Source: Bacillus sp. CGMCC 1.16541
Lineage (GTDB): Bacteria > Bacillota > Bacilli > Bacillales > Bacillaceae_H
Length of the DNA: 64,000 nt
Reading direction: 5' to 3'
Assembly (NCBI RefSeq): GCF_003184905.1
Contig: NZ_QFRU01000010.1
Coordinates: 62,001-126,000 of the forward strand
Position numbers and translations under genes: made by a program. A model generated the notes under the pieces. It saw only the letters and a program-made list of their open reading frames with translations, made no database searches and was not told where the DNA came from. Shown here piece by piece: positions 9,726 through 57,351 of this stretch; position 1 is the stretch's first letter; every line of letters starts with the position of its first letter.

Positions 9726-11321
9726 ATGAGAGCCATTGAGATTTCAAAAGCACCTTTAGAGAAATGGATTGAAATCATTGATAAGCCTTACCAAGATCGA
9801 ACGCCTTATCAAACAAGTGAAGAGAGTTATCATATCACCCAAGTAGCTGGAAGAATGCTTGGGGTGTCACATGATGAAACGGATTATTTAGTCACGTTAT
9901 ATGAGCTGTCTAAAAAGCCTCATGTCTTTATTTTAAGTGAAGAACTGGATAAAAACATTACACCAGAACGCTTTCAAGCCATTCAAAAAATCCATATGAT
10001 TAACCAAAAAGAAAATGGATTATCCATTAATCGGTTTGTCGCTTTTTTAGATGGTGAACGTCTTCTTCCTACTCATGCAAATAGCACCTATCATCGACAC
10101 TTACGTCAATCATTCATGACAATGCTTCGTCATTTTGAATCTCGTCACGGATTGGCTCATGCTGATTTTAGGCGTATTTTATTAGACGTGATTAAGTGGA
10201 CGTGGAATCATCTAGATCCATGGCTAACAGAGTATGACTTGGACAAACAGCTTCCATGTGTAGTGTGGTATGGAGATATGAATAAAAGTCAGCAATATTT
10301 CCTGTACTACTTAATTATGCTTGGTTTTGACGTTCTGATGTTTCACCCAGCAGGAGAGGATGCGTTTCATTTTATTGATGAACAAGACGAAGTCGCAAAA
10401 ATTCATCGTTACCCAACAACGATGTCACCGCCTCCATTTCCTATTGAACAACCAGAGCGACGAGGAACGGTAGCGTATCGTGCATCTAAAGAAATGGATG
10501 AAGTCATTCATCATGAAGACTCTTCTCTTTATAAACCTTGGCAATTTCGTAATTATGCTCCTTCTTCTGTCACGTTAAAAACAACGTATGATGAAGTATT
10601 TTTATTGGCAAAAGAGCGAGCATTTATTCGACCGAACTTCAAAGTGAAGGAAGGAGTTGTGTATATTCCTGCGCTTTTTTCAAAAGTGATGGGTGTCTCA
10701 CGCAACAAAAAAGAGTATTGGGATCGACTGCATCAATTAACAGAATTAAAACAAGCAATTACAGTTCAAACATTTCCTTTTACTCAACAAATTCAAACAA
10801 ACTACCAATTTCATTATCAGCATGCATTAAATCAACAGAATGAGTTAGATGTAGAAAAGATGATCAAAGGAAACTGGTGGCAATATGGTCATTTACCAGA
10901 AGGAATGCAAAAGGGGATTGCTTCAGCGATTGCTTCGATTTGTCGCAATCCGAAGTTGTTACCTGTTGGAAGTGAAACGGAAAAAGATGTTCAATTGTAT
11001 TTATTTACGCAAGTAGCAAACATTCCAAAGTTTTTCCTGAATGTCATGCAGACATTTGATTATGCACAAGAAGTTCCAAAGGTTATTTTATACAACAATG
11101 AAACCAATGGCGCGCTTTCTCGTTCAGATGCTGCACTTCTCTTATTATTAAATGAATTTGGAATGGATATCGTCGTGTATAATCCACCAGGTCATAACGA
11201 CCTTGAACAATACATTGATGCTTCTTGTTTTGATACACATTGGCTCGATGAGATGGTGTTTAACCAAGAATACAAAGAGCCCTCATTACTGAAACGAGTG
11301 TTTCGCTCAATTAAAAATTAG
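9726..11321 (+). CDS. yceG: YceG family protein of the Ter biosynthetic module
   Basis: A 531-residue cytosolic protein similar in length (about 537) and position to B. subtilis YceG, known only as a putative component of the Ter biosynthetic module. No signal peptide or membrane span is seen. Two regions look related: CVVWYGDMNKSQQYFLYYLIMLGFDVLMFHPAG (about residues 178-210) and KVILYNNETNGALSRSDAALLLLLNEFGMDIVVYNPPG (about 456-493). Each is a short strand ending in Y, a polar loop, a helix, then a strand ending H/N-P-x-G. This hints at an internal duplication of a Rossmann-like unit. The catalytic role is unknown. AGAGGGGGT precedes the ATG. Confidence 0.85.
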   Translation: MRAIEISKAPLEKWIEIIDKPYQDRTPYQTSEESYHITQVAGRMLGVSHDETDYLVTLYELSKKPHVFILSEELDKNITPERFQAIQKIHMINQKENGLSINRFVAFLDGERLLPTHANSTYHRHLRQSFMTMLRHFESRHGLAHADFRRILLDVIKWTWNHLDPWLTEYDLDKQLPCVVWYGDMNKSQQYFLYYLIMLGFDVLMFHPAGEDAFHFIDEQDEVAKIHRYPTTMSPPPFPIEQPERRGTVAYRASKEMDEVIHHEDSSLYKPWQFRNYAPSSVTLKTTYDEVFLLAKERAFIRPNFKVKEGVVYIPALFSKVMGVSRNKKEYWDRLHQLTELKQAITVQTFPFTQQIQTNYQFHYQHALNQQNELDVEKMIKGNWWQYGHLPEGMQKGIASAIASICRNPKLLPVGSETEKDVQLYLFTQVANIPKFFLNVMQTFDYAQEVPKVILYNNETNGALSRSDAALLLLLNEFGMDIVVYNPPGHNDLEQYIDASCFDTHWLDEMVFNQEYKEPSLLKRVFRSIKN

Positions 11322-11438
11322 ATGTGTGATTGAGTTTCGATTCGTTACGGTTCATTGAAGCAAGTATTTAGGAGTAGAAATCAACAAATCTTTACACATT
11401 GTTCAACGGCCAAAAATTTTAAAAAGGGTGAGACATAA

Positions 11439-12515
11439 ATGACAGATCAAACGGTATTATCGACACTTCAAAAAGAAGAAGGGTTAACAGAGCAACATGC
11501 AAATGATGTGCGTTTACAATTAAGGCAAGATCCATCTGTGCAGCAACTTTCACAGCAAGTGGATTATCGTAATCAAATGGAGCTTTTAGAGTTTGGAAAA
11601 GAGCCTGCTATTCAAATCTCTCAATTTTCAGATCGTATTTTATCAATGATGCGGACGTCTGAAATGAATGATTCTAGTAAAATGCTCCAACAGCTTGGAA
11701 AGTTAATGGATAAGTTTGATAAAAATGATTTTGAAGAGAAAAAAGGGTTTTTAGGTAAGTTGTTTAAGCGTGGTGAAAAGCTTATCGAAAAAATCTTTGA
11801 AAAGTATCAAACACTTGGGAAAGAAATCGAGAAAATTCACCAAGAAATTTCGGGTTATAAAGATAAAATGGTCCACACGTCGGGTATGTTAGAAGACATG
11901 TATCAACATAATATTCAATATTATATGGAACTTGAACGTTACATTGTAGCAGGTCAGTTAAAAGTAGATGAATTAAAAGGGCAAGCTGCACAATTAGAGC
12001 AACGTGCGGCAAGCGGTGATCAAATGGCTGCGATGAATCTTGATACGCTTCAAAATGGTATTCAAACATTAGAGGAGCGCATTTATGATTTAGAAATGGC
12101 GCGTATGGTTGCTGTTCAAACCGCTCCGCAAATTCGCTTGTTACAACGCGGTAACACGAAATTAATTGGTAAGATTAATTCGGCGTTTATTACAACAATT
12201 CCAATTTTTAAAAATGGAATTATTCAAGCTGTCGCAGCAAAACGTCAGAAATTAGTAGCAGATTCACTAAGCGAACTAGATCGTCGTACGAATGAGATGA
12301 TTTTACGTAATGCCCAAAACATTTCTAGTCAAAGTGTAGAAATTGCGAAGCTTGCAGGCTCTCCAAGTGTTAAAGTGGAAACACTTGAAGAATCATGGAG
12401 CATCATTATGAAGGGAATGGAAGAAACAAAAGCGATTGAAGATGAAAATAAGCGTTTACGAGAAGACGGTACACAGCGTATTCTTCAACTTCAAGAGCAA
12501 ATGAAATCTGTATAA
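11439..12515 (+). CDS. yceH: TelA family toxic anion resistance protein
   Basis: A 358-residue protein of the TelA/KlaA/YceH family, linked to tellurite, toxic-anion and cell-wall-antibiotic tolerance. It is largely helical and rich in E/K/Q with coiled-coil character and no membrane segment. The central part contains FLGKLFKRGEKLIEKIFEKY (about residues 104-123), followed by a long helical rod. The C-terminal half has QTAPQIRLLQRGNTKLIGKINSAF, the most conserved part of the family. The ATG follows AAAAAGGGTGAG. It is the last gene of the island, 117 bp after yceG, and is closed by a terminator. Confidence 0.92.
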   Translation: MTDQTVLSTLQKEEGLTEQHANDVRLQLRQDPSVQQLSQQVDYRNQMELLEFGKEPAIQISQFSDRILSMMRTSEMNDSSKMLQQLGKLMDKFDKNDFEEKKGFLGKLFKRGEKLIEKIFEKYQTLGKEIEKIHQEISGYKDKMVHTSGMLEDMYQHNIQYYMELERYIVAGQLKVDELKGQAAQLEQRAASGDQMAAMNLDTLQNGIQTLEERIYDLEMARMVAVQTAPQIRLLQRGNTKLIGKINSAFITTIPIFKNGIIQAVAAKRQKLVADSLSELDRRTNEMILRNAQNISSQSVEIAKLAGSPSVKVETLEESWSIIMKGMEETKAIEDENKRLREDGTQRILQLQEQMKSV

Positions 12516-12534
12516 TGATTAAATAGATAAGAAG

Positions 12535-12578
12535 AAAAATCTCGTTTGCATCATGTGGTATGAACGAGATTTTTTCTT
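12535..12578 (+). terminator. Terminator of the Ter island
   Basis: The stem AAAAATCTCGTT (12535-12546) pairs with AACGAGATTTTT (from 12563), followed by a T-rich run. Confidence 0.85.
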
Positions 12579-12737
12579 TTTATTCATAGTCAATAATGGT
12601 CAGAATTTTTTTTCTTCTTTTGCAAGCAGCGTATTTTCTTTTTATAAACTAGGCGATAAAATAGTAATAGTTATTTATTCCTAAAAATGTATAAATGAGA
12701 GTAATTACACATATATAAACTTTCTTTAAAATAGTGT

Positions 12738-12767
12738 CATGTCCTAATAAAAGGACATGTTTTTTTC
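12738..12767 (+). terminator. Hairpin with T-run upstream of the cyclase operon
   Basis: The perfect 8-bp stem CATGTCCT / AGGACATG (12738-12745 with 12752-12759) is followed by seven T. No gene ends here, so it may be a leader attenuator or a barrier. A TTGACA occurs just after it (12772-12777), but no -10 box at good spacing was found. The rest of 12580-12830 shows nothing else. Confidence 0.5.
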
Positions 12768-12832
12768 ATGTTTGACAGGCACTTTGGCATATAGATAAAG
12801 GAATGATTCACTGTGTAGAGGGGGTAGGGAAT

Positions 12833-14431
12833 GTGGAAAAATATCAAGCTGCACTTCTAAAGAATATTCGTGAAACATTGAAGAAGTGGTTTGAAGATGA
12901 GCAAGCGATTTCCCATGAGGAAGTCATTCGGTTTTTACACTCATTATCAGGAACGGCTCAAACCATTGGATTAACAGACTTAGGTGAAATGGCGCGAACG
13001 TTAATGGAGCAAATTGAGGGTGAAACACCAAAGCAGTGGTCAAACTCAGACTTGCGCATGCGCTTAGTCGCGATTATTACGCTTTGTTATCAAGATGAAA
13101 TTATTGAGAGTGATAGCAAACAAGAACGAATGGTCAAAGGGAAATCAATTGTTCTTTTAGTAGACAAAGACACGTCTGTATTAATGCATTTAAAAGATGA
13201 AATGGAAAGAGTCGGCTGGTACGTATTAGCTGTCACAGATATCCAAAAAGCGATTCAAGTGTTTTATGAGTCAAAACCTCATTGTGTGGTGTTAGACCTC
13301 GATATGCAACAGCAAAGTAGTGAATTGGTCAACTTTTTACATGAGCAAACGAATCATCGCTTTGTGCCAACCGTGATGATCAGTGAACATCATGACAAGC
13401 GCACACGGTTAACGGCATTTGAGATAGGAGCAGACGATTTTATTCCTAAGCCAATTGACGTAGAAGAATTTGTGGTGAGAGTTAAGCGTCATTTAGAACG
13501 AAAAAAACAGTTCGATTATCACTTATTGGTGGATGAATTAACGAATGTGTACAATCGTAAATACTTAATTGAACGATTTAATCAACAGCAAGCAGAGTAC
13601 AAACGATTGCAAGAAGCTTATTGCATCGTCATGATTGATATCGATAAGTTTAAAAGTGTGAATGATGATTACGGACATTTACAAGGAGATCAGGTGTTAA
13701 AGGAATTCGCATCGTTTTTAAAAAGCAGTATGCGCTCTACTGATGTTATTTTTCGCTATGGGGGAGAAGAATTTGTTCTGTTATTACCGAGAACACACGC
13801 AAACGATGCAAAAGTGTTGTTAGATCGTTTACTAGAACAATTCTCTATCATCACTTTTACACATGGTGCTCATTCTTTTTCATGTACATTCTCGGCTGGA
13901 ATTGTGGAGGTTGATCATGAAGATACACCGTTAGACGTTTGGTTAGACCGAGTGGACCAAGCGTTGTACAAAGCAAAAGAGTCAGGGCGAAAGCAAGTCG
14001 TCATTGCTTGTTCTTCAGGACAAAAACGAAAGCGTACGTTGCGAATTGCGATTGTCGATGATGATCCTGTTGTACGAACCATGCTAACTGAAACGATGAA
14101 AAAGGTAGACATGGAAGGGGCATATGATGTTGTTGTTCAACCATTTAAAGATGGAGAAACGTTTTTGCGAGATGAATGGACACATAGTGACGACCAATAT
14201 GTTGTCATTTTAGATGGGATGATGCCGAAGATGGATGGCTTAGAAGTACTTCAGAGATTGCGTAAGACGAAGCGTCACGATAAATATAAGATGATTATGT
14301 TGACGACGAGAAAAAGTGAACAAGACATAAAAAAAGCGTTAGAGCTAGGCGCAGATGATTATATGACGAAACCATTTAAGTTACTAGAAGTCGAAGCTAG
14401 GATTCATCATTTGATGAAAAGGATGAAGTAA
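12833..14431 (+). CDS. Diguanylate cyclase: Hpt-REC-GGDEF-REC
   Basis: About 532 residues and a soluble four-module signalling protein. An Hpt-like helical domain comes first, with FLHSLSG and its phospho-acceptor candidate H36. Receiver 1 has aspartate D155 in VVLDLDMQ. The GGDEF domain carries GGEEF at residues 310-314, and RSTD sits exactly five residues upstream as the inhibitory I-site. Receiver 2 (from about residue 410) has D461 in VILDGMMP. The intact GGEEF predicts synthesis of c-di-GMP from two GTP. GTG 12833 is chosen because AGGGGG lies about 9 nt upstream; an ATG at 12803 has its purine run directly touching it. It leads a six-gene polysaccharide/signalling operon, so phosphate probably arrives from the hybrid kinase at the operon end (inference). 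Confidence 0.88.
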   Translation: MEKYQAALLKNIRETLKKWFEDEQAISHEEVIRFLHSLSGTAQTIGLTDLGEMARTLMEQIEGETPKQWSNSDLRMRLVAIITLCYQDEIIESDSKQERMVKGKSIVLLVDKDTSVLMHLKDEMERVGWYVLAVTDIQKAIQVFYESKPHCVVLDLDMQQQSSELVNFLHEQTNHRFVPTVMISEHHDKRTRLTAFEIGADDFIPKPIDVEEFVVRVKRHLERKKQFDYHLLVDELTNVYNRKYLIERFNQQQAEYKRLQEAYCIVMIDIDKFKSVNDDYGHLQGDQVLKEFASFLKSSMRSTDVIFRYGGEEFVLLLPRTHANDAKVLLDRLLEQFSIITFTHGAHSFSCTFSAGIVEVDHEDTPLDVWLDRVDQALYKAKESGRKQVVIACSSGQKRKRTLRIAIVDDDPVVRTMLTETMKKVDMEGAYDVVVQPFKDGETFLRDEWTHSDDQYVVILDGMMPKMDGLEVLQRLRKTKRHDKYKMIMLTTRKSEQDIKKALELGADDYMTKPFKLLEVEARIHHLMKRMK

Positions 14432-14433
14432 AC

Positions 14434-15486
14434 GTGTTTACAAATGAGATTGCACTTATTTTAACAAGTATGTTTTGTATGTTTATCCTTCTTCTCGCGT
14501 TATTCGGTCATTTAGTAATCAAGAAAATCATGTATAACAGACGACGTGCGTTCATTGAACAGTACAAAGAACAATTAAGAGAGCGCGTTTTTTATTATTT
14601 ATATCATGAAGATAAAACGTTTATTGAAGAATCATTTAACGCTCAACAAATGATCGCCATTGAAGAGTTGTTAAGTGATTTTGCTGATGTGATAGATGAA
14701 GGAGAGTCACGAACACGTATCCAATTGTATGCAGAAACTCATTTTACGGATGCGTACAAAAAGGCGTTACATCATCGTCGGTGGAGTATTAGGATGAATA
14801 CGCTTTATGCGATTGAAGACTTTCATATGGAAGGAATGCTGGCATCAGTTCTATCATTCTATGATAAGCCTTCTTTAACAGTAGGAGAAGAGAGTCAATT
14901 CTTAAAGATTTTAGTTGTGTTTCAGCATCCTCAGTTTTTGTATTACATCACTCACTCTCGACAACCCCTATCAGAGTCTGTTTACCGTTCGCTATATGGC
15001 CAAATGAATGACGAGCAATTTAGAGAATGTGTAAAAGTTTATGACGAATTGCCAATCTATTTACAGCTATCGCTTATTGACATGATTGGCATTGAACATA
15101 AGTGGGAGTATGCAAGCTTTTTAAAGGAGCAGTTGTCTTCGTCTGTTGATGAACAACGAATTCGAGCGTTAAAAGCATTAAACGAATTAAGTTATCCAAT
15201 GGAGGTAGAAACACTTCTTTTTCACGTTCATGCAAGCGGGTGGCAAGAAAGAATGATGGCTACGAAACTATTAGGAAAAACAAAGGATGAGCAAGCTTTG
15301 CCATTGCTTGAAACATTGCTGCAAGATGTTCACTTTTCAGTTCGTTCGAACGCTGCAAAATCAATGCTTCTTATTCGCAATGGAAAAGACTATTTGTTTC
15401 AAGTTTATCAGAACACAGAAGATCGTTATGCAAAGGACATGGCTCGAGAATGGTTAGAGCGAGGAGGAGTAGAGCTTGTGGAGTGA
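14434..15486 (+). CDS. Membrane-anchored HEAT-repeat protein
   Basis: 350 residues. One N-terminal membrane helix (about residues 5-28, rich in L/I/F) is followed by a basic stretch and a long helical cytosolic region. HEAT-like repeats are recognisable, for example RIRALKALNELSYP, RMMATKLLGKTKDEQALPLLETLL and SVRSNAAKSMLLI. The gene starts with GTG 2 nt after the cyclase stop, and overlaps the glycosyltransferase gene by 11 nt. HEAT proteins are scaffolds, so it probably couples the cyclase or receivers to the synthase at the membrane. This is inference; I know no characterised equivalent in this arrangement. Confidence 0.8.
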   Translation: MFTNEIALILTSMFCMFILLLALFGHLVIKKIMYNRRRAFIEQYKEQLRERVFYYLYHEDKTFIEESFNAQQMIAIEELLSDFADVIDEGESRTRIQLYAETHFTDAYKKALHHRRWSIRMNTLYAIEDFHMEGMLASVLSFYDKPSLTVGEESQFLKILVVFQHPQFLYYITHSRQPLSESVYRSLYGQMNDEQFRECVKVYDELPIYLQLSLIDMIGIEHKWEYASFLKEQLSSSVDEQRIRALKALNELSYPMEVETLLFHVHASGWQERMMATKLLGKTKDEQALPLLETLLQDVHFSVRSNAAKSMLLIRNGKDYLFQVYQNTEDRYAKDMAREWLERGGVELVE

Positions 15487-16885
15487 GATTGGACACGGGC
15501 TTTTTATGCTTGTGGGATGGATTATTATGATTTATATGGTTGTGGTTATTGGATTTTATCTATTTATGCTCGTCGTCTCTATTTTTCAAGTGCGAAAGCA
15601 GTATCAATTAGATAATGATGAGCCGTATGAGGATTTATTAGAAGTCAGTTATACAAAGCCTCTTTCTATTTTAGTGCCGGCATACAATGAATCGGTTGGT
15701 ATTTTGGCTAGTGTGCGTTCATTGTTAAGCATTCAATATTCAGAGTACGAGATCATTGTCATTAACGATGGTTCCACAGATGATACGATGGAGCAGCTCA
15801 TTGAAGAATATGAGTTGGTCAAAATTAATCGAGTAATAAAAAAAGCCATCGATACAAAAGAGGTAAAAGCCATTTATCAATCACGAATCTATGATTATGT
15901 CTATGTGGTAGATAAAGAAAATGGAGGAAAGGCAGATGCATTGAATGTAGGCATTAATTTAGCAAACTTTCCTTATTTTTGTTCGATTGACGGTGACTCG
16001 GTGTTAGAAAGAGATTCATTTTTAAAGGTGATGAAGCCTATTATTGATTCAGATGGAGACGTCATTGCATCGGGTGGAAGTGTGAGGATTGCAAACGGGT
16101 GTCAAATTGAGAATGGTTCCATTGTGTCGATTGGTCTTTCATCAAGACCTCTTGTCATTATGCAAGTGATTGAGTATTTGCGAGCCTTTTTAATGGGAAG
16201 AATTGGACTCAGTCGTCATAACTTGTTACTCATTGTCTCAGGAGCGTTCGGTGTGTTTTCGAAGCATTGGGTGATTGAAGCGGGTGGCTATTCTCATACT
16301 GTCGGAGAAGACATGGAGCTTGTGGTTCGATTGCACCGATTAGTGAAAGAGAAGAAAGCGAATAAAAAAATTATTTATATTGCAGACCCTGTTTGTTGGA
16401 CAGAAGCGCCAGAGGAAATCAGATTTTTAAAAAGGCAACGAAACCGATGGCACCGTGGTTTGTTTGATAGCTTGTGGACACATAAAAAAATGCTTTTTAA
16501 TCCGAAGTATGGCTCAATTGGGATGGTGTCGATGCCTTACTTTTTACTCATTGAATTTTTAGGACCTGTTATTGAATTAATTGGCTATCTTTATATTCTT
16601 TTTTCGTTCGCTGTAGGTGGCGTTTATTTAGAATTCTCATATTTATTATTTTTGTTGTTTGTTCTATATGGCTCAATGTATTCAATGGTGGGTGTGTTAT
16701 TAGAAGAGTGGAGTTTACGACGTTTTCCAAAGGTGAGTCATGTGGTGAAACTGTTCTTTTTTTCAATGACAGAATCGTTTTGGTATCGACCTATGACAGT
16801 GATATGGCGTTGTCAGGGGATTGTTGATATGCTTCGTAAGAAAAAAGGCTGGGGAGATATGAAGCGGAAGGGTGTTTCACAATGA
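15476..16885 (+). CDS. Processive family 2 glycosyltransferase (polysaccharide synthase-like)
   Basis: 469 residues. An N-terminal membrane helix is followed by a GT2 catalytic domain with LSILVPAYNESVGILASV (about residues 63-80), VINDGSTDDT, ENGGKADALN, the DxD-type SIDGDS and a GEDMEL acidic motif. QRNRW follows, the QxxRW signature of processive synthases such as cellulose, hyaluronan and PNAG synthases. Several C-terminal membrane helices come after it. UDP-sugar polymerisation and export across the membrane are expected; the sugar is not predictable. No PilZ domain is visible, so c-di-GMP control would need another receptor. It starts at TTG 15476, with GAGGAGGAG six nt upstream, and overlaps its neighbours at both ends. 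Confidence 0.88.
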   Translation: MWSEIGHGLFMLVGWIIMIYMVVVIGFYLFMLVVSIFQVRKQYQLDNDEPYEDLLEVSYTKPLSILVPAYNESVGILASVRSLLSIQYSEYEIIVINDGSTDDTMEQLIEEYELVKINRVIKKAIDTKEVKAIYQSRIYDYVYVVDKENGGKADALNVGINLANFPYFCSIDGDSVLERDSFLKVMKPIIDSDGDVIASGGSVRIANGCQIENGSIVSIGLSSRPLVIMQVIEYLRAFLMGRIGLSRHNLLLIVSGAFGVFSKHWVIEAGGYSHTVGEDMELVVRLHRLVKEKKANKKIIYIADPVCWTEAPEEIRFLKRQRNRWHRGLFDSLWTHKKMLFNPKYGSIGMVSMPYFLLIEFLGPVIELIGYLYILFSFAVGGVYLEFSYLLFLLFVLYGSMYSMVGVLLEEWSLRRFPKVSHVVKLFFFSMTESFWYRPMTVIWRCQGIVDMLRKKKGWGDMKRKGVSQ

Positions 16886-19800
16886 AAGGTCGATGGAGGT
16901 TATTTATTTTTGGATTGTCTGCGATTGCATTCCTTTTACTTACAACGTCTCCATTTTGGGTGTGGCAAGTAAAGTCAAAGACAACGCTTGATATGCTTAT
17001 TATTGATAAGACGGTCCCTGATGCAACATTTCGAGAGCATCAAGGGTTAACGTGGTTTTTAAATTACACGAAAGTAAAAAAGAGCGATGATACACCCTAT
17101 CAGGCTGCACATGATTATGTTGGGTTCGATCCTACAAAAGAGGATAATGATCGAATTCGTCCTATTGAAGAAGGACAGTACGACATGATTTACATGGCTG
17201 ATGGCTATGGTGTGTATGAAGATGATGTAACAGACAAAGAGGGTGAGCGTTCTGAACTGATTTACGGAGGGATGACGATGGAAGATGTGTCATCCATTCG
17301 ATCCATGGTGATAAACAATCAAGCTACACTCATTAGTGAGTTTAATACATTTGGCAGCCCGACTTCTGGTGAGGTGAGAAGAGAATTTTATGACCTTCTT
17401 CACTTAGAGTGGAGTGGATGGATTGGACGTTACTTTGTTGATTTGCAAAGTGATGAAATTCCTGCTTGGATGAAGAAAAATTATGAAAAACAGTATGGAG
17501 AAACGTGGGCTTTAAAAGGAAAAGGATTTGTTTTTGTTCATGAGTCTGATCGTTTAATGATTTTGACAGAGGAACAATTGAAACAAGAAGGTGTACAGTT
17601 TACTTATACGAAACAAGGAAAACAGCATTTTGATGTAACGAGAGAATCTGATTACTATTATTGGTTTGATATTGTCACACCCGTAAATGAAAAAGAAGTG
17701 ATGGCTACGTTCACCATGAATGTAACGAAAGAAGCAGAAGAAATGTTAAAAAAAGAAGGCATTCCACTTGCTGTTCCAGCTGTTATGTATCATCAAAACG
17801 AACGGTATGATGCTTACTACTTTACTGGAGATTTTGCAGATCAAGGAGAAGTTCCAGCTCTCTACCAGCTTGAATGGTATGCGACTTGGAAGAGGTGGAT
17901 GTCATCTCTTTCTAAAGATGAGGAGTCGTCTTTTTACTGGCGTACGTATATTCCGATGATGAAGGCAATTGTGCAACAAAATCGTCATGATAAGAAAACG
18001 GTGAAAACAAATGCCGTTCCCGTTCATGAGAGCAATGGTTACAAAATGAACGCAAAAGTTGGCAATGATTATTTACAAATGTATCAAGATGGGCAATGGA
18101 AAGATGTGCTCATTAAAGGCGTGAATATGGGGATTGGAAAGCCAGGTACGTTCCCTGGTGAAACGGCTATTTCAAAGCGGGAGTATGCAAGGTGGTTTCA
18201 GCAAATCGGCGAGATGAATGCAAATGCTATTCGTGTGTACACCATTCACCCTCCTCATTTTTATGAAGCGTTAGCTGAATACAATGAAACAGCCAAGCAT
18301 CCACTTTATTTATTTCACGGTGTGTGGCTAAACGAAGAGGTTTTTTATGAAACACAAGACGCCTTTTCGAAAGAGAACACGAAAGAGTTTAAAGATGAAA
18401 TTAAACGAATTGTTGATTTAGTTCATGGCAACGCGAAGCTAGAAGAGCGACCAGGGCATGCTAGTGGAAACTATACAGCAAACGTAGCACCTTATATTTT
18501 AGGATGGATATTAGGAGTAGAGTGGGACCCGGAAGTTGTATTAGCGACAAATGAAAAACATAAAAATCAACCAGACTTTAACGGGAAATATGTATATACA
18601 AAAGATGCGGAGCCATTTGAAGTATGGCTTGCTGAAATGATGGAGTATACGATTCAGTATGAACAAGATAAATACGATTGGCAGCGTCCAATGAGTTTTA
18701 CTAACTGGGTAACCACTGACTTACTTGAGCATCCAGCAGAACCGCATGACAAAGAAGACATGGTGTCGATTGATCCAAATGTCATTTATGCAAAAGAGAC
18801 GTTTGAAGGAGGCTTATTTGCATCTTATCACATTTATCCTTATTATCCAGATCTCTTAAACTATGAAAAGCGGTATGTGGACTATGTCGATCATCGTGGT
18901 GAAAAAAATAACTATGCTGGATATCTTCAGCATATGAAAGAAGTTCATCGTATGCCGCTCCTTGTCGCTGAGTTTGGAATTCCTGCATCAAGAGGATTAA
19001 CACACAAAAATGTATATGGATGGAACCAAGGTTTTCATTCGGAAGAAGAACAAGGAGAACTTGTAACAAGGTTATATGAAGACATTGTTGAAGAGAAAAT
19101 GGCAGGAGGGTTAATTTTTTCTTGGCATGATGAATGGTTTAAACGCACGTGGAACACGATGGACTATGATAATCCAGATCGCCGGCCGTTTTGGAGTAAC
19201 GTTCAAACAAACGAGCAACGATTTGGCTTGTTAAGTTTTGATCCAGGTGAGACGTTGAAAGTTAAAGTAGATGGCCAAAAAGATGACTGGAATGAATGGC
19301 GTGCGCAGTCGGTTTATCCGTCATCAAAGCACTTAAAAGGAATGTATGTCACAAGTGATGAAGCGTATTTGTATGTTCGCTTAGATGCAGATAGAGTGGA
19401 ATTGAATGACTATTACTTGCTGTTAGATACAATTGAAGAGCAAGGACAGTCTAGGGTGCCAAAGGTTCCTTCAATTAAGGCGGAAGGAATTGACTTTGTT
19501 GCCGAATTAACAGGGGAACAATCAAGCCGCATTCTTGTAGACAGTTACTATGATACATTTTATTATTCATACGCACATACGTTGAACATGATTGACGACG
19601 TTGAGTATGCATCGAAAAAAGATAACGGTGTGTTTCATCCAATTCGGTTAGCATTAAATAAAGAGATTACTATCGAGCAAGGTGGGAAACAAAAGACGTA
19701 TCCATTTGATGATTATGAAGCAGGTAAATTACGCTTTGGAAATAGTGACCCTGCCTCTTCGTCCTATGACTCGCTAGCTGATTTTTATGTGAATACAAAA

Positions 19801-20130
19801 GAAAACATGGTAGAGGTTCGTATTCCGTGGGCTCTTTTAAATGTAAAAGATCCGAGTACCCATGAAGTGATGGGCGATATTTGGGGATCGGGTGGAATTG
19901 AGGCGAGTAAAACGACAGAAGGCATCAAGATTGGAGTTGTGGCAGTCGATAAAAAGACACAAAGTATAACGGATACGTATCCAATGATGCAAAGTGAAGA
20001 GTTAGCGATTGGACCTCTTTATCGTTATCAATGGGAAGCATGGGAAGAGCCGAGCTATCATGAACGATTAAAGCAATCTTATTATCGTGTGCAAGAGATG
20101 TTTGGGAAAGTGAAGGAAGCGGGGGAGTGA
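16882..20130 (+). CDS. Membrane-anchored glycoside hydrolase-like protein with C-terminal sugar-binding-like domain
   Basis: 1082 residues. An uncleaved N-terminal membrane anchor (about residues 8-28) precedes an extracytoplasmic region of about 380 residues of unknown fold. A TIM-barrel clan GH-A-like domain follows (about 405-800), starting LIKGVNMGIGKPGTFPGE, with NANAIRVYTIHPP. The likely acid/base glutamate is E547 in GVEWDP and the likely nucleophile is E697 in VAEFGIP. The last ~270 residues (VDGQKDDWNEW onward) look like a beta-sandwich of the CBM9/DOMON kind. It overlaps the GT2 stop (ATGA). Likely roles are trimming, transglycosylation or release of the polymer made by the GT2 enzyme. 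The order anchor-unknown-GH-sandwich is unusual. Confidence 0.82.
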   Translation: MKGRWRLFIFGLSAIAFLLLTTSPFWVWQVKSKTTLDMLIIDKTVPDATFREHQGLTWFLNYTKVKKSDDTPYQAAHDYVGFDPTKEDNDRIRPIEEGQYDMIYMADGYGVYEDDVTDKEGERSELIYGGMTMEDVSSIRSMVINNQATLISEFNTFGSPTSGEVRREFYDLLHLEWSGWIGRYFVDLQSDEIPAWMKKNYEKQYGETWALKGKGFVFVHESDRLMILTEEQLKQEGVQFTYTKQGKQHFDVTRESDYYYWFDIVTPVNEKEVMATFTMNVTKEAEEMLKKEGIPLAVPAVMYHQNERYDAYYFTGDFADQGEVPALYQLEWYATWKRWMSSLSKDEESSFYWRTYIPMMKAIVQQNRHDKKTVKTNAVPVHESNGYKMNAKVGNDYLQMYQDGQWKDVLIKGVNMGIGKPGTFPGETAISKREYARWFQQIGEMNANAIRVYTIHPPHFYEALAEYNETAKHPLYLFHGVWLNEEVFYETQDAFSKENTKEFKDEIKRIVDLVHGNAKLEERPGHASGNYTANVAPYILGWILGVEWDPEVVLATNEKHKNQPDFNGKYVYTKDAEPFEVWLAEMMEYTIQYEQDKYDWQRPMSFTNWVTTDLLEHPAEPHDKEDMVSIDPNVIYAKETFEGGLFASYHIYPYYPDLLNYEKRYVDYVDHRGEKNNYAGYLQHMKEVHRMPLLVAEFGIPASRGLTHKNVYGWNQGFHSEEEQGELVTRLYEDIVEEKMAGGLIFSWHDEWFKRTWNTMDYDNPDRRPFWSNVQTNEQRFGLLSFDPGETLKVKVDGQKDDWNEWRAQSVYPSSKHLKGMYVTSDEAYLYVRLDADRVELNDYYLLLDTIEEQGQSRVPKVPSIKAEGIDFVAELTGEQSSRILVDSYYDTFYYSYAHTLNMIDDVEYASKKDNGVFHPIRLALNKEITIEQGGKQKTYPFDDYEAGKLRFGNSDPASSSYDSLADFYVNTKENMVEVRIPWALLNVKDPSTHEVMGDIWGSGGIEASKTTEGIKIGVVAVDKKTQSITDTYPMMQSEELAIGPLYRYQWEAWEEPSYHERLKQSYYRVQEMFGKVKEAGE

Positions 20131-20133
20131 AGC

Positions 20134-20499
20134 ATGGCAAGGATTTTATTGGCTGAAGATGAATCAGTCTTACGTATGCTTGTTGTAGACACGTTAGAAG
20201 ATGAAGGGCACGAGATCGTTGAAGCGTGTGATGGGCAAGAAGCATTGAACAAAATCCACACAGACGGTCCATTTGATTTACTCATTCTTGATTATATGAT
20301 GCCTGTTTATACAGGGCTCGAAGTGGTGCAAAAGATGACACATGATTCAAAAACAAAAGTTTTAATGCTTTCAGCTAAAAGTCAACATACAGATCGTGAG
20401 CGTGTATTGAATGCAGGGGCAACGTCGTTTATGTCCAAACCATTTAGTCCGTTAGAGCTTGTGAAAAAAGTAGAGGAACTTTTACATGAAAAGAACTAG
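20134..20499 (+). CDS. Single-domain response regulator (CheY-like)
   Basis: A 121-residue stand-alone receiver domain. The acidic pocket is AEDE near residues 7-10, the phospho-acceptor is D53 in LLILDYMMP, S/T is seen in LMLSAK, and the conserved lysine is in SKPFSP. There is no output domain, so it should shuttle phosphate or bind a partner such as the HEAT protein or the Hpt domain of the cyclase. It starts 3 nt after the hydrolase gene and overlaps the kinase gene by 14 nt. Confidence 0.9.
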   Translation: MARILLAEDESVLRMLVVDTLEDEGHEIVEACDGQEALNKIHTDGPFDLLILDYMMPVYTGLEVVQKMTHDSKTKVLMLSAKSQHTDRERVLNAGATSFMSKPFSPLELVKKVEELLHEKN

Positions 20500-23326
20500 A
20501 AAATTTTCTGCACAATTTTTATGGATTGTTGGCTCATTCGTTCTTTTGTTTTTAGTTGGAATGAGTGTGTTATTAAGTTATCAATCTGTTATTACAGCCA
20601 CTTATGAAGAGGAAAATAGAGAGCTAGAGAAAAGAAGGAAGTCTGTTGCAAAGATTGACAATTCATTTACACAAGCTGTTGCACAGTCGAGGGGATATAT
20701 TGCTTTTTCTAATACACAAATGCTTGATGATGCATTCAAGCAGGAAAAAGTCATAAAGCAAGAAATAGTAAATCTTTCTCAACTTGCTAAAGTAGAGACT
20801 GACTTGCTTTTTGTGAATGAAGTGTCTTCTTTTTCTACATTCTATTTTCGTTCGTTAATTAAAGATGGAGTGACAATTTATCAAGATAAAGGGTTAGAGG
20901 CATTACGAGAGTTTGTACAAAAAGGCAATTCTTCTGAACAAGTCGCAAATTTTAATGACTATGTAAAACAATATCGAGAGAGCATTAATAAGCAAATTGA
21001 TGACAACTCAACATTATTAGTTAAACAGTTAAATCAAAGTCAGTGGCTCTTTGTAGGGTATTTACTACTTGTATTAGCAGGGTTGTTTTATATGACAAGA
21101 GTGATGTTAAAGCGAATTGGTCAACCTTTAGAGAAATTAGCAATGATAGCGGTAGAGGTTGAGCAAGGCAAGGTTGTCATGTTGCCAGAAGCAGTAGAGC
21201 GTACAGATGAAATTGGGACGCTAACGAGTGCCTTTTCAAAGATGGTCAAACGTTTGCAAGCAAATGAAGAAGAAGTGACGGCTCAAAATGAAGAGTTGGT
21301 TGCTCAACAAGATGAGTTGCAGTCACAACAAGATGAACTGCACTATGCATTAACATTGATGAAGCAACGGGAACTCGAACTCGAAGCACGAAACGAGTTT
21401 ACGCATGGATTAGCGGATACACTTGATCAACAAAAGCTTCTTCAAAGTGTTGTTGAAAACATGGCAAGAGTCATTAAGGCTGAACATGGGTTTATTGTAT
21501 CAATGATGAATCTAAACGAGTATGCGTCTGTCGGCTTGACGAAAACAGCGGTCGCTCAGGTTCTTGAAAACATTGACAATGGTTACGTTGAGAAAGTAAA
21601 AGAACAGAAAAAGTCTTTTACGATTAAGCGAGTATGTGAACCTAGTGAAAAAATCTATCACGAAGGTCATTTATACATGTATGACTTAATTGTACCTGTG
21701 TTATCGCTTGAAGATGAAGTCATTTCATGTATGTTTTATAGTCGATATAGTGAGCCTTTTACTGAAAGAGACTTAGAGTTATGTGAAGCGTTGTCTAAAC
21801 AAATAAGCATTGCTTTAGAGAAGATACATGTATATGAGGAAACGGAACACGACCGCTTATTGTATCAAGATATTTTAAATTCGATTCATGAAGGTGTTCA
21901 GTTATTTAGTAAGTCGGGAGTTATCTTACAAGTGAATACAACGATGTGTGAATTGTTTGATTGTCCACCGCCTCGGCAAATGTTACATCATACATTTGAT
22001 GAGTGGTCTCAGAAGCTTTTATGGGATGTGAAAAATGGTGAACGACTTGTTCACTATATGAAAAGCATGCTAGAGGGAGAAGGAGAGGTTGGTCAAACGT
22101 TTATTTATGAAATGAACCAAGAAACAAAGCGAAAAGTGATGCAAGTTTATTGCGAACAAGTGTATCGTAATAACAAGAAATATGGAGTCATTTTCGTGCA
22201 TCGAGATATTACAAAAGAGTACGAAGTGGATGAAATGAAGTCCGAGTTTGTGAGTACCGTAAGTCATGAATTACGTACACCACTTGCGAGTGTGTTAGGG
22301 TTCACAGAGTTAATGTTAAATAAGGAGTTAAAGCCTGAGCGACAAAAGAAATATTTAACGACAATTTATCAAGAAGCAAAACGGCTAACTGCTTTAATCA
22401 ATGATTTTCTAGATGTGCAGCGGATGGAAGCGGGTAAGCAATCGTATGAAAAAAAGCAAGAAGATATTGTATCTATTGCGAAGCAAGTCATTCAAGCACA
22501 AGAGATAGCTGTTTCGGCTCATACCATTGATTTGGTTACAAAGACGGAACATAGCTTTGTGCTAGGAGACCGAGATAAACTCATTCAAGTGTTTAATAAT
22601 TTGTTGAATAATGCTATTAAATATTCACCAGAAGGCGGCAAAGTCCTTGTTTTAATTGAGGAACGTGATCAACAACTTTGTGTCGATGTGAAAGATGAAG
22701 GGATTGGGATTCCTCCTGAATCGATTGATCAATTGTTTATGAAGTTTTATCGTGTAGATAATTCGGATATGAGAAAAATTGGTGGTACCGGACTTGGTCT
22801 TGCGATTGTAAAAGAAATCATCAAAGCACATGGTGGGAATATCACTGTTCAATCTGAATTAAAAAAAGGAAGTACATTTACAGTAAGCTTGCCATTGATT
22901 AGCAAGCCGAAAAAAGTCCATACGTCTCATAAGAGAGAGCAAGAGCATGCCAATGTAGTCATCATTGAAGATGATCAAAGTTTAGCAACGCTACTACAAG
23001 AAGAGTTGAAAGAACGAGGATTTTATGTGCAATATTTTAATAACGGTGAAGATGCGTTGACATTCATTGAAGGTTCTCCACCACAAGCTATCGTGTTAGA
23101 TCTGATGTTAAAGGAAAATGAATTAGATGGATGGGCGATATTAGAGAAGCTTAAAAAAGATGAAAGATTGGCGACCATTCCAATTTTTATCTCTTCGGCA
23201 TTAGATGAACAAGAAAAAGGTCTTGCTCTCGGAGCGCAGTATTACTTAACTAAGCCTTATCAGCCTAGTCAATTATCGAAGGCTATTATACAGGTGGTGC
23301 TCAATAAGCATGATTCATCTAGTTAG
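20486..23326 (+). CDS. Hybrid sensor histidine kinase (CHASE-like/HAMP/GAF/PAS/HisKA/HATPase/REC)
   Basis: 946 residues. Membrane helices at about 10-32 and 187-205 bracket an extracytoplasmic helical sensor. A HAMP segment follows, then a Q/E-rich coiled coil (about 255-310), a GAF-like domain (about 315-455) and a PAS-like domain (about 460-575). The HisKA H-box FVSTVSHELRTP has H594. The HATPase has NNLLNNAIKYSPEGG and GGTGLGLAIVKEI. The C-terminal receiver has D872 in VLDLMLKE. The internal receiver plus the Hpt domain of the cyclase encoded at 12833 would complete a His-Asp-His-Asp phosphorelay within the operon (inference). Last gene of the operon. Confidence 0.9.
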   Translation: MKRTRKFSAQFLWIVGSFVLLFLVGMSVLLSYQSVITATYEEENRELEKRRKSVAKIDNSFTQAVAQSRGYIAFSNTQMLDDAFKQEKVIKQEIVNLSQLAKVETDLLFVNEVSSFSTFYFRSLIKDGVTIYQDKGLEALREFVQKGNSSEQVANFNDYVKQYRESINKQIDDNSTLLVKQLNQSQWLFVGYLLLVLAGLFYMTRVMLKRIGQPLEKLAMIAVEVEQGKVVMLPEAVERTDEIGTLTSAFSKMVKRLQANEEEVTAQNEELVAQQDELQSQQDELHYALTLMKQRELELEARNEFTHGLADTLDQQKLLQSVVENMARVIKAEHGFIVSMMNLNEYASVGLTKTAVAQVLENIDNGYVEKVKEQKKSFTIKRVCEPSEKIYHEGHLYMYDLIVPVLSLEDEVISCMFYSRYSEPFTERDLELCEALSKQISIALEKIHVYEETEHDRLLYQDILNSIHEGVQLFSKSGVILQVNTTMCELFDCPPPRQMLHHTFDEWSQKLLWDVKNGERLVHYMKSMLEGEGEVGQTFIYEMNQETKRKVMQVYCEQVYRNNKKYGVIFVHRDITKEYEVDEMKSEFVSTVSHELRTPLASVLGFTELMLNKELKPERQKKYLTTIYQEAKRLTALINDFLDVQRMEAGKQSYEKKQEDIVSIAKQVIQAQEIAVSAHTIDLVTKTEHSFVLGDRDKLIQVFNNLLNNAIKYSPEGGKVLVLIEERDQQLCVDVKDEGIGIPPESIDQLFMKFYRVDNSDMRKIGGTGLGLAIVKEIIKAHGGNITVQSELKKGSTFTVSLPLISKPKKVHTSHKREQEHANVVIIEDDQSLATLLQEELKERGFYVQYFNNGEDALTFIEGSPPQAIVLDLMLKENELDGWAILEKLKKDERLATIPIFISSALDEQEKGLALGAQYYLTKPYQPSQLSKAIIQVVLNKHDSSS

Positions 23327-23391
23327 ATGGTAGAGGATCTTAAAGAAGTAGAGCGAGTTCCAACGCGATATAAAACCATTAGTTCATGAAA

Positions 23392-23443
23392 AGAAGCTGA
23401 GTCAAATGAGGGGAGTACCTTTCCCAAGTTTGACTCAGCTTCT
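23392..23443. terminator. Bidirectional terminator between kinase and HD-GYP gene
   Basis: A 15-bp perfect stem (23392-23406 with 23429-23443) with a 22-nt loop lies between convergent genes and abuts the stop codon of the minus-strand gene. Confidence 0.75.
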
Positions 23444-24490
23444 TTATCTTTCTATCAATCGAACCATTTGTAGTGAAGGAAACATGCGTAGATCCACATA
23501 TGCATCTTCGATTTTAACTAGTGGTTTATGAGGTTCATTGTCGTGGATAAAAATGATTTCACCAATGCGACCGTCACTCAGTTCAATTTCAGATCCAATA
23601 AATTGTCTGATGACGTATTGAACGAGCGGAAAAACGATGGCACGATTTAACCGGTTGTTTGTCACTTCTTTTATCAATTCATGTACGACATCAAACATTG
23701 GCTTTTTATCTTGATACACTCTTTTAGATAGCATAGCGTCAAAGGCATCTGCTACAGAAATAATTTGAACGAGAAAAGGGATGTCTTTTTCTTTCAATCC
23801 TTTCGGGTATCCAGAGCCATCAATACGTTCGTGGTGTAATAACGCAGCATCTTTAATATGTTGTTCAATGACATTCATACTACGGAGTAATTCGTACCCA
23901 TGTGTTGTATGACGTTTTATTTGTTCCCACTCTTCAGTTGTTAAGGGGGCTGACTTATCTAGAATCCGTTTATCAATCATCATTCGTCCGATGTCGTGAA
24001 ACAAACCCATTCGTCCAAGCAATAAACATTCGTTGTGAGAGCGTTTTAATATTTTGCCAATTAAAGCACTGATAATCCCCACGTTTAAGCTGTGACTATA
24101 CACATATTCTTCGTAACTATCTTCCTTTTGAATATGATTTAATACAGCTAAGTCTTCCATTGAGTTTTCTAGTAGATAGTCATAATTCTTTGTTAGATGA
24201 GAGAAGTCGATGTGAGTCATTGGTTTCGTTGTGACTTGACTAAATGTATGTTTAATCGCTTGAAAGCATAGCTGATAACTTTTTTCTGTTTTCATTGTTC
24301 GTGCTTTTAATAAATGATTTGCATCCTCAACAACGGCAATCTTTTTACCGAAGCTGTATCGCTGCAGGATAAGAATATGAGACTCTGTTAATTCTATGCC
24401 TTTTTTTAACAATAAAACGCCTTGATCTGAATGGATATCTTGGGCAAGTTTCTCTCCAACTAACCCAAAAGAAACGGGATACTTTGCCAT
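23444..24490 (-). CDS. HD-GYP domain cyclic-di-GMP phosphodiesterase
   Basis: 348 residues, cytosolic. The N-terminal ~110 residues are a DUF3391-like lead. The HD-GYP domain follows, with HSLNVGIISALIGK, the HD pair in LFHDIGRMMIDKRIL, and the full HHERIDGSGYPKGL motif that defines active c-di-GMP (or cGAMP) hydrolases. The C-terminal tail has a small PilZ-like or beta region (GSEIELSDGRIGEIIFI). The start ATG follows TAAGGAG. It is convergent to, and separately transcribed from, the cyclase operon, so the locus carries both synthesis and breakdown of c-di-GMP. Confidence 0.9.
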   Translation of the reverse strand: MAKYPVSFGLVGEKLAQDIHSDQGVLLLKKGIELTESHILILQRYSFGKKIAVVEDANHLLKARTMKTEKSYQLCFQAIKHTFSQVTTKPMTHIDFSHLTKNYDYLLENSMEDLAVLNHIQKEDSYEEYVYSHSLNVGIISALIGKILKRSHNECLLLGRMGLFHDIGRMMIDKRILDKSAPLTTEEWEQIKRHTTHGYELLRSMNVIEQHIKDAALLHHERIDGSGYPKGLKEKDIPFLVQIISVADAFDAMLSKRVYQDKKPMFDVVHELIKEVTNNRLNRAIVFPLVQYVIRQFIGSEIELSDGRIGEIIFIHDNEPHKPLVKIEDAYVDLRMFPSLQMVRLIER

Positions 24491-45062: not shown

Positions 45063-45166
45063 TTCTTATCAAGAGAGGTAGAGGGATTTGGCCCTATGAC
45101 ACCTCGGCAACGGACTTTTTAAAGCACCGTGCCAACTCCAGCAAGCAGTTGCTTGACAGATAAGAA
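45063..45166 (+). promoter_or_regulatory. SAM-I (S-box) riboswitch aptamer
   Basis: P1 is TTCTTATC (45063-45070) with GATAAGAA (45159-45166). Inside are the S-box landmarks AGAGAGGTAGAGGGA, GGCCCTATGA, CTCGGCAAC and the GTGCCAACTCCAGCA stretch. It binds S-adenosylmethionine and normally represses methionine, cysteine or SAM genes by termination. Here a terminator follows, but no sulfur-metabolism gene does. Confidence 0.93.
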
Positions 45167-57174: not shown

Positions 57175-57230
57175 GAATGATATCTAAGTATGTAAAAAGA
57201 AAATTCAAACGACGTAGATATACTCACTAC

Positions 57231-57320
57231 ACTTCCCCACGCTAGTATTATCTAGATCGGGTTATAAGGGATCGGAACGGTTGTTCACATCTCAGCCCAT
57301 AATGAGCACCCCTAGTGTAC
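57231..57320 (-). promoter_or_regulatory. TPP (THI-box) riboswitch
   Basis: On the minus strand ACTAGGGGTGCTC, then GGGCTGAGATG, then CCCGATCTAGATAATACTAGC and GTGGGGAAGTG. These are the conserved THI-box segments. With thiamine pyrophosphate bound, the downstream terminator should form and switch ykoFEDC off. Confidence 0.95.
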
Positions 57321-57351
57321 GAAACGATATGCAGTTGTTTTATTAGTATGT

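Follow-up and report, generated by a model that had tools for sequence, protein, structure and literature searches.

The 64,000-nucleotide window analysed here, from Bacillus sp. CGMCC 1.16541 (contig NZ_QFRU01000010.1; source genome of 3.97 Mb), carries a tight operon of six plus-strand genes at 12833-23326, in which neighbouring genes are separated by a few bases or overlap according to the open reading frame (ORF) calls, genes 2 and 3 sharing 11 bases (Table 1). We propose that this locus is quite probably a self-contained polysaccharide synthase gated by cyclic di-GMP (c-di-GMP), in which a kinase phosphorelay would drive a diguanylate cyclase that is also the receptor controlling a GT2 synthase through a HEAT-repeat protein. 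The operon had been described in an original prediction made from the sequence letters; the ORFs lie where it placed them, Pfam agrees with its domain names except for gene 4, which is glycosidase-like by structure model, and the residues it singled out (H36 in gene 1, H594 and D872 in the kinase, an intact GGEEF and I-site) are correct.

Table 1. Genes and sequence features of the operon and its borders (positions in the window).
Feature	Position	Strand	Basis
Promoter-like hexamers (12704-12732), then 8-bp stem-loop and T-run (12738-12759)	12704..12759	+	Sequence inspection
Gene 1, predicted Hpt-REC-GGDEF-REC diguanylate cyclase, 532 aa, GTG start	12833..14431	+	Pfam, motifs, PDB alignment
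Gene 2, HEAT-repeat protein; single hydrophobic (membrane) segment, N-terminal	14434..15486	+	Pfam HEAT_2, simple hydropathy
Gene 3, processive-type GT2 membrane synthase	15476..16885	+	Pfam GT2, QRNRW at 321, catalytic Asp
Gene 4, membrane-anchored extracytoplasmic glycoside hydrolase (GH)-like protein	16882..20130	+	Structure model, conserved Glu
Gene 5, stand-alone receiver (D53)	20134..20499	+	Pfam Response_reg
Gene 6, membrane hybrid histidine kinase	20486..23326	+	Pfam, motifs
HD-GYP phosphodiesterase, neighbour judged outside the system	23444..24490	-	Pfam

The GTG start of gene 1 is preceded by a G-rich ribosome site, and an ATG at 12803 is also open. The protein has Pfam matches to Hpt, two receivers and GGDEF (151 bits for GGDEF), and the corresponding residues are H36 of the Hpt, D155 of the first receiver (RECn), GGEEF at 310 and D461 of the last receiver (RECc). 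Its best solved relatives by sequence are chains of PleD and DgcR (PDB alignment), and aligned with these it has the GGEEF and the metal and substrate residues of a predicted diguanylate cyclase. The putative I-site comprises RSTD at 301 (R301/D304), with D325, a third primary-site arginine (R332) and the secondary-site arginine R258. In PleD numbering c-di-GMP is held by R359, D362 and R390 plus a secondary arginine (PMC7288161, PMC8041772). Gene 1 is read here as probably a receptor as well as a cyclase. At the other end of the operon, gene 6 has GAF, HisKA (H594), HATPase and REC (D872) domains in Pfam, with HAMP and PAS below the cut-off. Together with the lone receiver these proteins contain all the residues of a candidate His-Asp-His-Asp relay, namely H594, D872 or D53, H36, and D155 or D461.

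Relatives of gene 4 were found in 11 of 16 genomes of the family and 108 of 398 genomes of the class, and HEAT relatives in 114 of 299 genomes of the order, the own genome being counted each time. A scan of named genomes gave at least 583 gene-4 relatives among at least 596 pattern matches; the best 80, which were kept, belong to Priestia, Rossellomorea, Metabacillus, Anoxybacillus, Lysinibacillus, Sporosarcina, Paenibacillus and others. Within Bacilli the system is widely distributed. A phage origin was rejected, as none of 57 pattern matches in viral contigs was a relative. The loci compared are a non-random sample of 180 (L060-L239), made up of 40 GH matches, the best 80 named GH relatives and 60 HEAT matches. 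A HEAT-GT2 filter was passed by 143 of the 180 (144 with the window), and removal of 11 at 95% or more HEAT identity left 133; all neighbour counts hold for fetched stretches of about 10-23 kb. The six genes occur in the same order and on the same strand in 38 of the 132 other non-redundant HEAT-GT2 loci, so that the expectation of the original prediction that neighbours should be conserved in relatives is borne out, and in a further 12 the operon agrees except that no GH gene stands in that place. In the remaining loci gene 4 is divergently oriented, lies at another place, is reduced to its N-terminal domain or falls outside the fetched stretch. The six-gene arrangement exceeds chance, and the stable core is gene 1-HEAT-GT2. 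Two loci (L137 and L149) have the permuted order GH, receiver, kinase, Hpt-cyclase, HEAT, GT2. HEAT fusions with GT2 or gene 1 are absent among the ORFs called; the HEAT match of genome G545 (L206) lies in an open frame of 836 aa in the order-genome scan versus 344 aa in the ORF calls.

The evidence that bears most directly on a receptor role comes from relatives of gene 1 whose catalytic site has decayed. Gene 1 was recognised by an adjacency rule and its GGDEF domain by a match at E < 0.01. Among the 133 loci, 100 have a GGDEF match in gene 1 (59 intact, 41 degenerate), 13 have a receiver-only protein and 20 lack a recognised gene 1. The term degenerate follows a strict motif rule, which takes in L105 (GGEEI) and L143 (GGDKF), whose proteins may have kept activity. 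Among the 41 degenerate proteins the catalytic residues are mostly gone (D327 is left in 6, N335 in 8, E370 in 4 and D344 in 12), and mean retention over the 48 columns conserved at 80% or more in intact domains is 0.38. RxxD is kept in 38 of the 41 and its Asp in all of them.

The most reduced proteins are 25 short forms of 254-348 aa, which have no Hpt and for which no kinase or receiver neighbour was found; RxxD is present in every one. Alignment of 24 of them (L170 being left out), with 28-52% identity to the first row, gave nine invariant columns, six of which fall in the GGDEF remnant: R31, R70, D73, E95, R102 and E128. By counting along the PDB alignment, R70 and D73 are the RxxD (PleD R359/D362), R102 is PleD R390, R31 is the secondary-site arginine R163 of DgcR and E95 corresponds to PleD D383. 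All four known I-site ligand positions are therefore among the six invariant ones of 131 columns, for which the chance is 1.3e-6 if shared descent is ignored. The three short relatives scanned in Pfam, out of 25, gave a receiver and no GGDEF match, and because of this such putative receptors would easily be missed by routine annotation. The protein model of L159 (pLDDT 88.8) has receiver domains filling its fold-match lists, with GGDEF-containing chains at Foldseek ranks 4, 7 and 22 at an rmsd of 18-23, the VIA list being limited to residues 167-301.

That the I-site only serves ordinary product inhibition, the true output receptor being another protein or the GT2 itself and HEAT-GT2 being just co-transcribed, is an obvious alternative, as active cyclases commonly use RxxD for feedback (PMC8041772) and gene 1 of the window has an intact catalytic motif. 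Feedback inhibition, however, leaves unexplained why the degenerate proteins keep RxxD almost throughout while still encoded beside HEAT and GT2, and why the four ligand positions are invariant in the short forms, and we regard this explanation as unlikely. The retention of the I-site where catalysis is lost points to c-di-GMP as the likely internal signal of the system, as had been predicted.

Gene 1 might alternatively be mainly a phospho-receiver, whose phosphorylated RECc drives HEAT-GT2 by protein contact and for which c-di-GMP is secondary. The RECc Asp is indeed kept in 59 of 59 intact proteins, and at least six loci (L115, L122, L126, L140, L147 and L222) have it where a GGDEF remnant or I-site is undetectable. 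Against this, the short degenerate proteins have lost the RECc Asp in 24 of 25 cases, mostly to Asn, and all have kept RxxD, which indicates that it is usually the phospho-site that goes in loci without the relay. To a reading of gene 1 as chiefly a phospho-receiver we give a small probability.

Relay parts and intact catalysis go together. Intact cyclases lie beside a kinase in 55 of 59 loci and a lone receiver in 56, and have an Hpt in 58; in the degenerate class the figures are 2, 2 and 7 of 41. The intact proteins keep the Hpt His in 58 of 59 and the first-receiver Asp in 50. The view that the operon is a dedicated one with a kinase-receiver-Hpt set of its own agrees with this co-occurrence. 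Of 23 kinases called without a receiver, 16 (609-689 aa) were probably truncated where the fetched stretch ends; the other seven, of 804-818 aa (L075, L180-L184 and L201), appear to have no C-terminal receiver, yet their operons include the lone receiver and an Hpt cyclase. This suggests the lone receiver as a possible phosphate carrier between kinase and Hpt.

On a quick tree of concatenated HEAT and GT2 sequences from 100 loci, made without bootstrap, the motif state changes 11 times, 9 of these being forced by well supported (starred) branches, compared with 31.8 for shuffled labels. We read the 11 changes as losses, although the count itself is blind to gain versus loss. RxxD is kept throughout two degenerate clades, of 26 and 5 rows, in the degenerate pair L237/L238 and in L239 and L214, each a degenerate row on its own; among the six other degenerate rows RxxD is present in L105, L143 and L162 and absent from L108, L153 and L229. 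Of 9 tree-independent pairs contrasting in motif state, 5.8 have the kinase on the intact side, 0.0 have it on the degenerate side and 3.2 are alike in kinase presence (median p 0.031, range 0.016-0.125). Comparison across the loci supports, at the level of motifs and neighbours, a linkage of cyclase and relay together with I-site sensing.

Some loci appear to carry the two functions on separate genes. A separate same-strand gene for a GGDEF protein whose motif is intact (SGDEF or GGEEF) is found near 5 of the 25 short-receptor loci and 0 of the 16 longer degenerate ones, at -139 to 241 bp in four cases and at 3.4 kb in the fifth; 0 of these 5 have RxxD at the I-site position. In intact loci another GGDEF gene within 6 kb occurs in 1 of 58, on the opposite strand. 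A cyclase without I-site beside a receptor without active site is what would be expected if a single ancestral protein had combined the two functions, with the direction of the change being our inference. It appears to us evenly balanced whether the more specific form of the proposal is right, namely that gene 1 is a one-chain cyclase-receptor which makes and reads its own c-di-GMP, gates a HEAT-coupled synthase without PilZ, PgaD or a membrane GGDEF receptor, and has repeatedly been split in evolution (into a receptor only, a receptor plus a separate I-site-less cyclase, or a phospho-receiver only).

Several observations weigh against the c-di-GMP-gated synthase proposed here. Strict RxxD is missing from 10 of 59 intact and 3 of 41 degenerate proteins, so the I-site is not always needed. 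The GGDEF profile, built mainly from intact domains, favours near-intact sequences and thereby biases the retention count upwards. In the 13 receiver-only loci, all of which lack a kinase, a deeper profile found a remnant with RNSD in L094 and only the tail of a remnant within the called ORF in L090, and no significant match in the other 11, where another input must then act; four relay labels among the loci without GGDEF apparently arise because gene 1 itself was counted as a receiver. The six loci with a RECc Asp and no detectable remnant, named above, mean that phospho-input alone may suffice in some lineages. Among the 20 loci without a recognised gene 1, at least L129, L131 and L134 have a neighbouring gene-1-like protein that escaped the adjacency rule. 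Hpt-kinase pairs on the tree stand at 4.4 to 0.0 of 6, short of 0.05, and the pairs for intact motif and I-site show no association, a result expected if both classes keep the site but no independent proof of it. As a separate observation, L140, L147, L222, L226 and L227 have a gene-1 front part of about 130-180 aa with no detectable GGDEF or I-site, and the receiver Asp is kept in the first three of these.

The synthase encoded by gene 3 carries QRNRW and the catalytic Asp residues, and over the 133 loci the Q of QxxRW is present in 133 and the R and W in 132, with one gap. It is not assigned to the poly-GlcNAc synthases PgaC/IcaA (107.5 bits against the cut-off of 422.3 of NCBIfam TIGR03937) nor to the cellulose synthase BcsA (33.4 bits against 699.1 for TIGR03030), and it has no PilZ match in Pfam. 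The score outside the PgaC/IcaA family leaves room for an operon that makes no exopolysaccharide and modifies cell-wall or spore surface glycans with the GT2 and the glycosidase. We consider this quite unlikely, given that residues 14-362 resemble hyaluronan synthase chains and that QxxRW together with membrane segments is typical of processive synthases. In the own genome a second GT2 relative with 33% identity (G000:C15:70318-71490, L241) lies inside an open frame of 999 aa.

Gene 4 has no match in Pfam or NCBIfam, and its one match by sequence in PDB (E 0.086) was judged to be chance. The structure model predicts an N-terminal domain (1-370), a glycosidase TIM barrel of clan GH-A with two putative catalytic Glu (E547 and E697) and a strand-rich C-terminal domain. 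Both Glu are kept in 153 of 153 sequences, near-copies included. In L215, L237, L238 and L239 the N-terminal domain is a separate protein of 357-370 aa adjoining a degenerate gene 1, HEAT and GT2. It is followed by a protein of 567-574 aa which is by eye a membrane protein and which, in the sole copy scanned (L237), has a weak phosphatase-like Pfam match.

For the locus of the window we favour the c-di-GMP-gated synthase, which would work as follows. An outside signal would set the membrane kinase at H594, and phosphate would pass via a receiver (D872 of the kinase, the lone D53, or both) to H36 of the Hpt of gene 1 and then to D155 and D461 in its receivers, switching on the GGEEF cyclase. 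The c-di-GMP produced would be bound by the I-site of gene 1 itself (R301, D304 and R332, with R258 as secondary site), and gene 1 in this bound state would, through the HEAT membrane protein as a coupler, switch on rather than inhibit the GT2. The synthase would then polymerise and export a glycan chain, which the anchored glycosidase may trim or release outside.

The leader of the operon has a hairpin lying about 6 bases 3' of a TAAAAT hexamer. With an 8-bp stem and T-run right behind the promoter-like hexamers, a transcript would start with a terminator-like stem. Hairpin and TAAAAT recur in the leader of the nearest relative (L060) but were not seen by eye in 14 further leaders. A c-di-GMP riboswitch in the leader was considered and rejected: the only Rfam matches in the window above gathering scores are a SAM riboswitch (45063-45166) and a TPP riboswitch (57217-57323), and the region 12500-12900 has just five sub-threshold Rfam matches, all to unrelated families. 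Upstream, genes for YceG and TelA (Pfam; 9726-12515) end just before the operon, a context also present in L060, and presumably belong to a ter-type stress cluster. Downstream, the HD-GYP gene had been placed next door to the six genes, within the range of the locus, by the original prediction. Its membership in the set is not supported, since a strong relative is found in only 1 of the 132 other fetched stretches (L060), which makes the gene lineage-specific; two further loci have weak HD-GYP matches, in longer proteins.

Our literature search, whose reach excluded most subscription journals, found no description of a HEAT-GT2-cyclase operon. By analogy the proposed control would work like that of YdaK, PssE, PelD and BcsE, yet the assembly is different, in that a single protein combines cyclase, Hpt, receivers and I-site and the partner is a HEAT protein. 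The ydaJKLMN operon of Bacillus subtilis is also an exopolysaccharide operon with a degenerate GGDEF receptor, YdaK, and an essential I-site, and the exchange R202A abolishes both the response of YdaK to c-di-GMP and its contact with the cyclase DgcK (PMC7064775). The window differs in joining cyclase and I-site with Hpt and receivers and in its HEAT protein, whereas DgcK is separate. The N-terminal part of YdaK lies in the membrane, and the protein is not known to contain a receiver. The window proteins have no additional Pfam domains marking them as Yda, and are set apart from YdaJ, L, M and N by description, not by sequence.

Exopolysaccharide formation by the pssA-E system of Listeria likewise depends on the RxxD of a degenerate GGDEF protein (PssE, with DKDDA), the GGDEF domain of which has a Kd of 0.79 uM for c-di-GMP; unlike in the window, separate cyclases feed it (PMC4125290). 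A search of the main text of that paper for the word HEAT, though not for Hpt or kinase, gave no match. BcsE, from enterobacterial cellulose secretion, pairs a degenerate receiver with a degenerate GGDEF and binds c-di-GMP at the I-site, the substrate-coordinating parts being missing (PMC7439463), an architecture close to that of the short relatives; it differs by its REC-GGDEF order with a further N-terminal domain and by its partners, BcsQ/R/F and a PilZ synthase. PelD of the Pel systems, including that of Bacillus cereus, shares a degenerate GGDEF and I-site-dependent polymer formation, and its GGDEF was missed by BLAST and HMMER (PMC7112168), as it is by Pfam in the three short relatives; it belongs to a different operon with a separate cyclase, CdgF. 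The response-regulator cyclases PleD and DgcR have a REC-GGDEF arrangement and an I-site in common with gene 1, but not its front Hpt, its second receiver at the back or the linkage to HEAT-GT2. In Clostridium perfringens a HEAT protein is encoded beside a GT2 whose best match was called chitin synthase (CP4_0467-CP4_0468), with CotH and VTC genes nearby, and no cyclase is listed with the pair in the portion of PMC2879425 available to us. This pair, known here by description alone, is possibly a distant form of the HEAT-GT2 pair.

The control circuit proposed for the locus is specific and open to experiment, and many Bacilli could make the polymer it would control. A hidden class of predicted c-di-GMP receptors is also indicated, since Pfam gives no GGDEF match in the three short relatives scanned. 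Because the aligned families have lost catalysis, phospho-input and c-di-GMP sensing separately, the change from cyclase to receptor becomes testable in them; if the proposal is true, nature would have dissected in this family the passage from enzyme to sensor.

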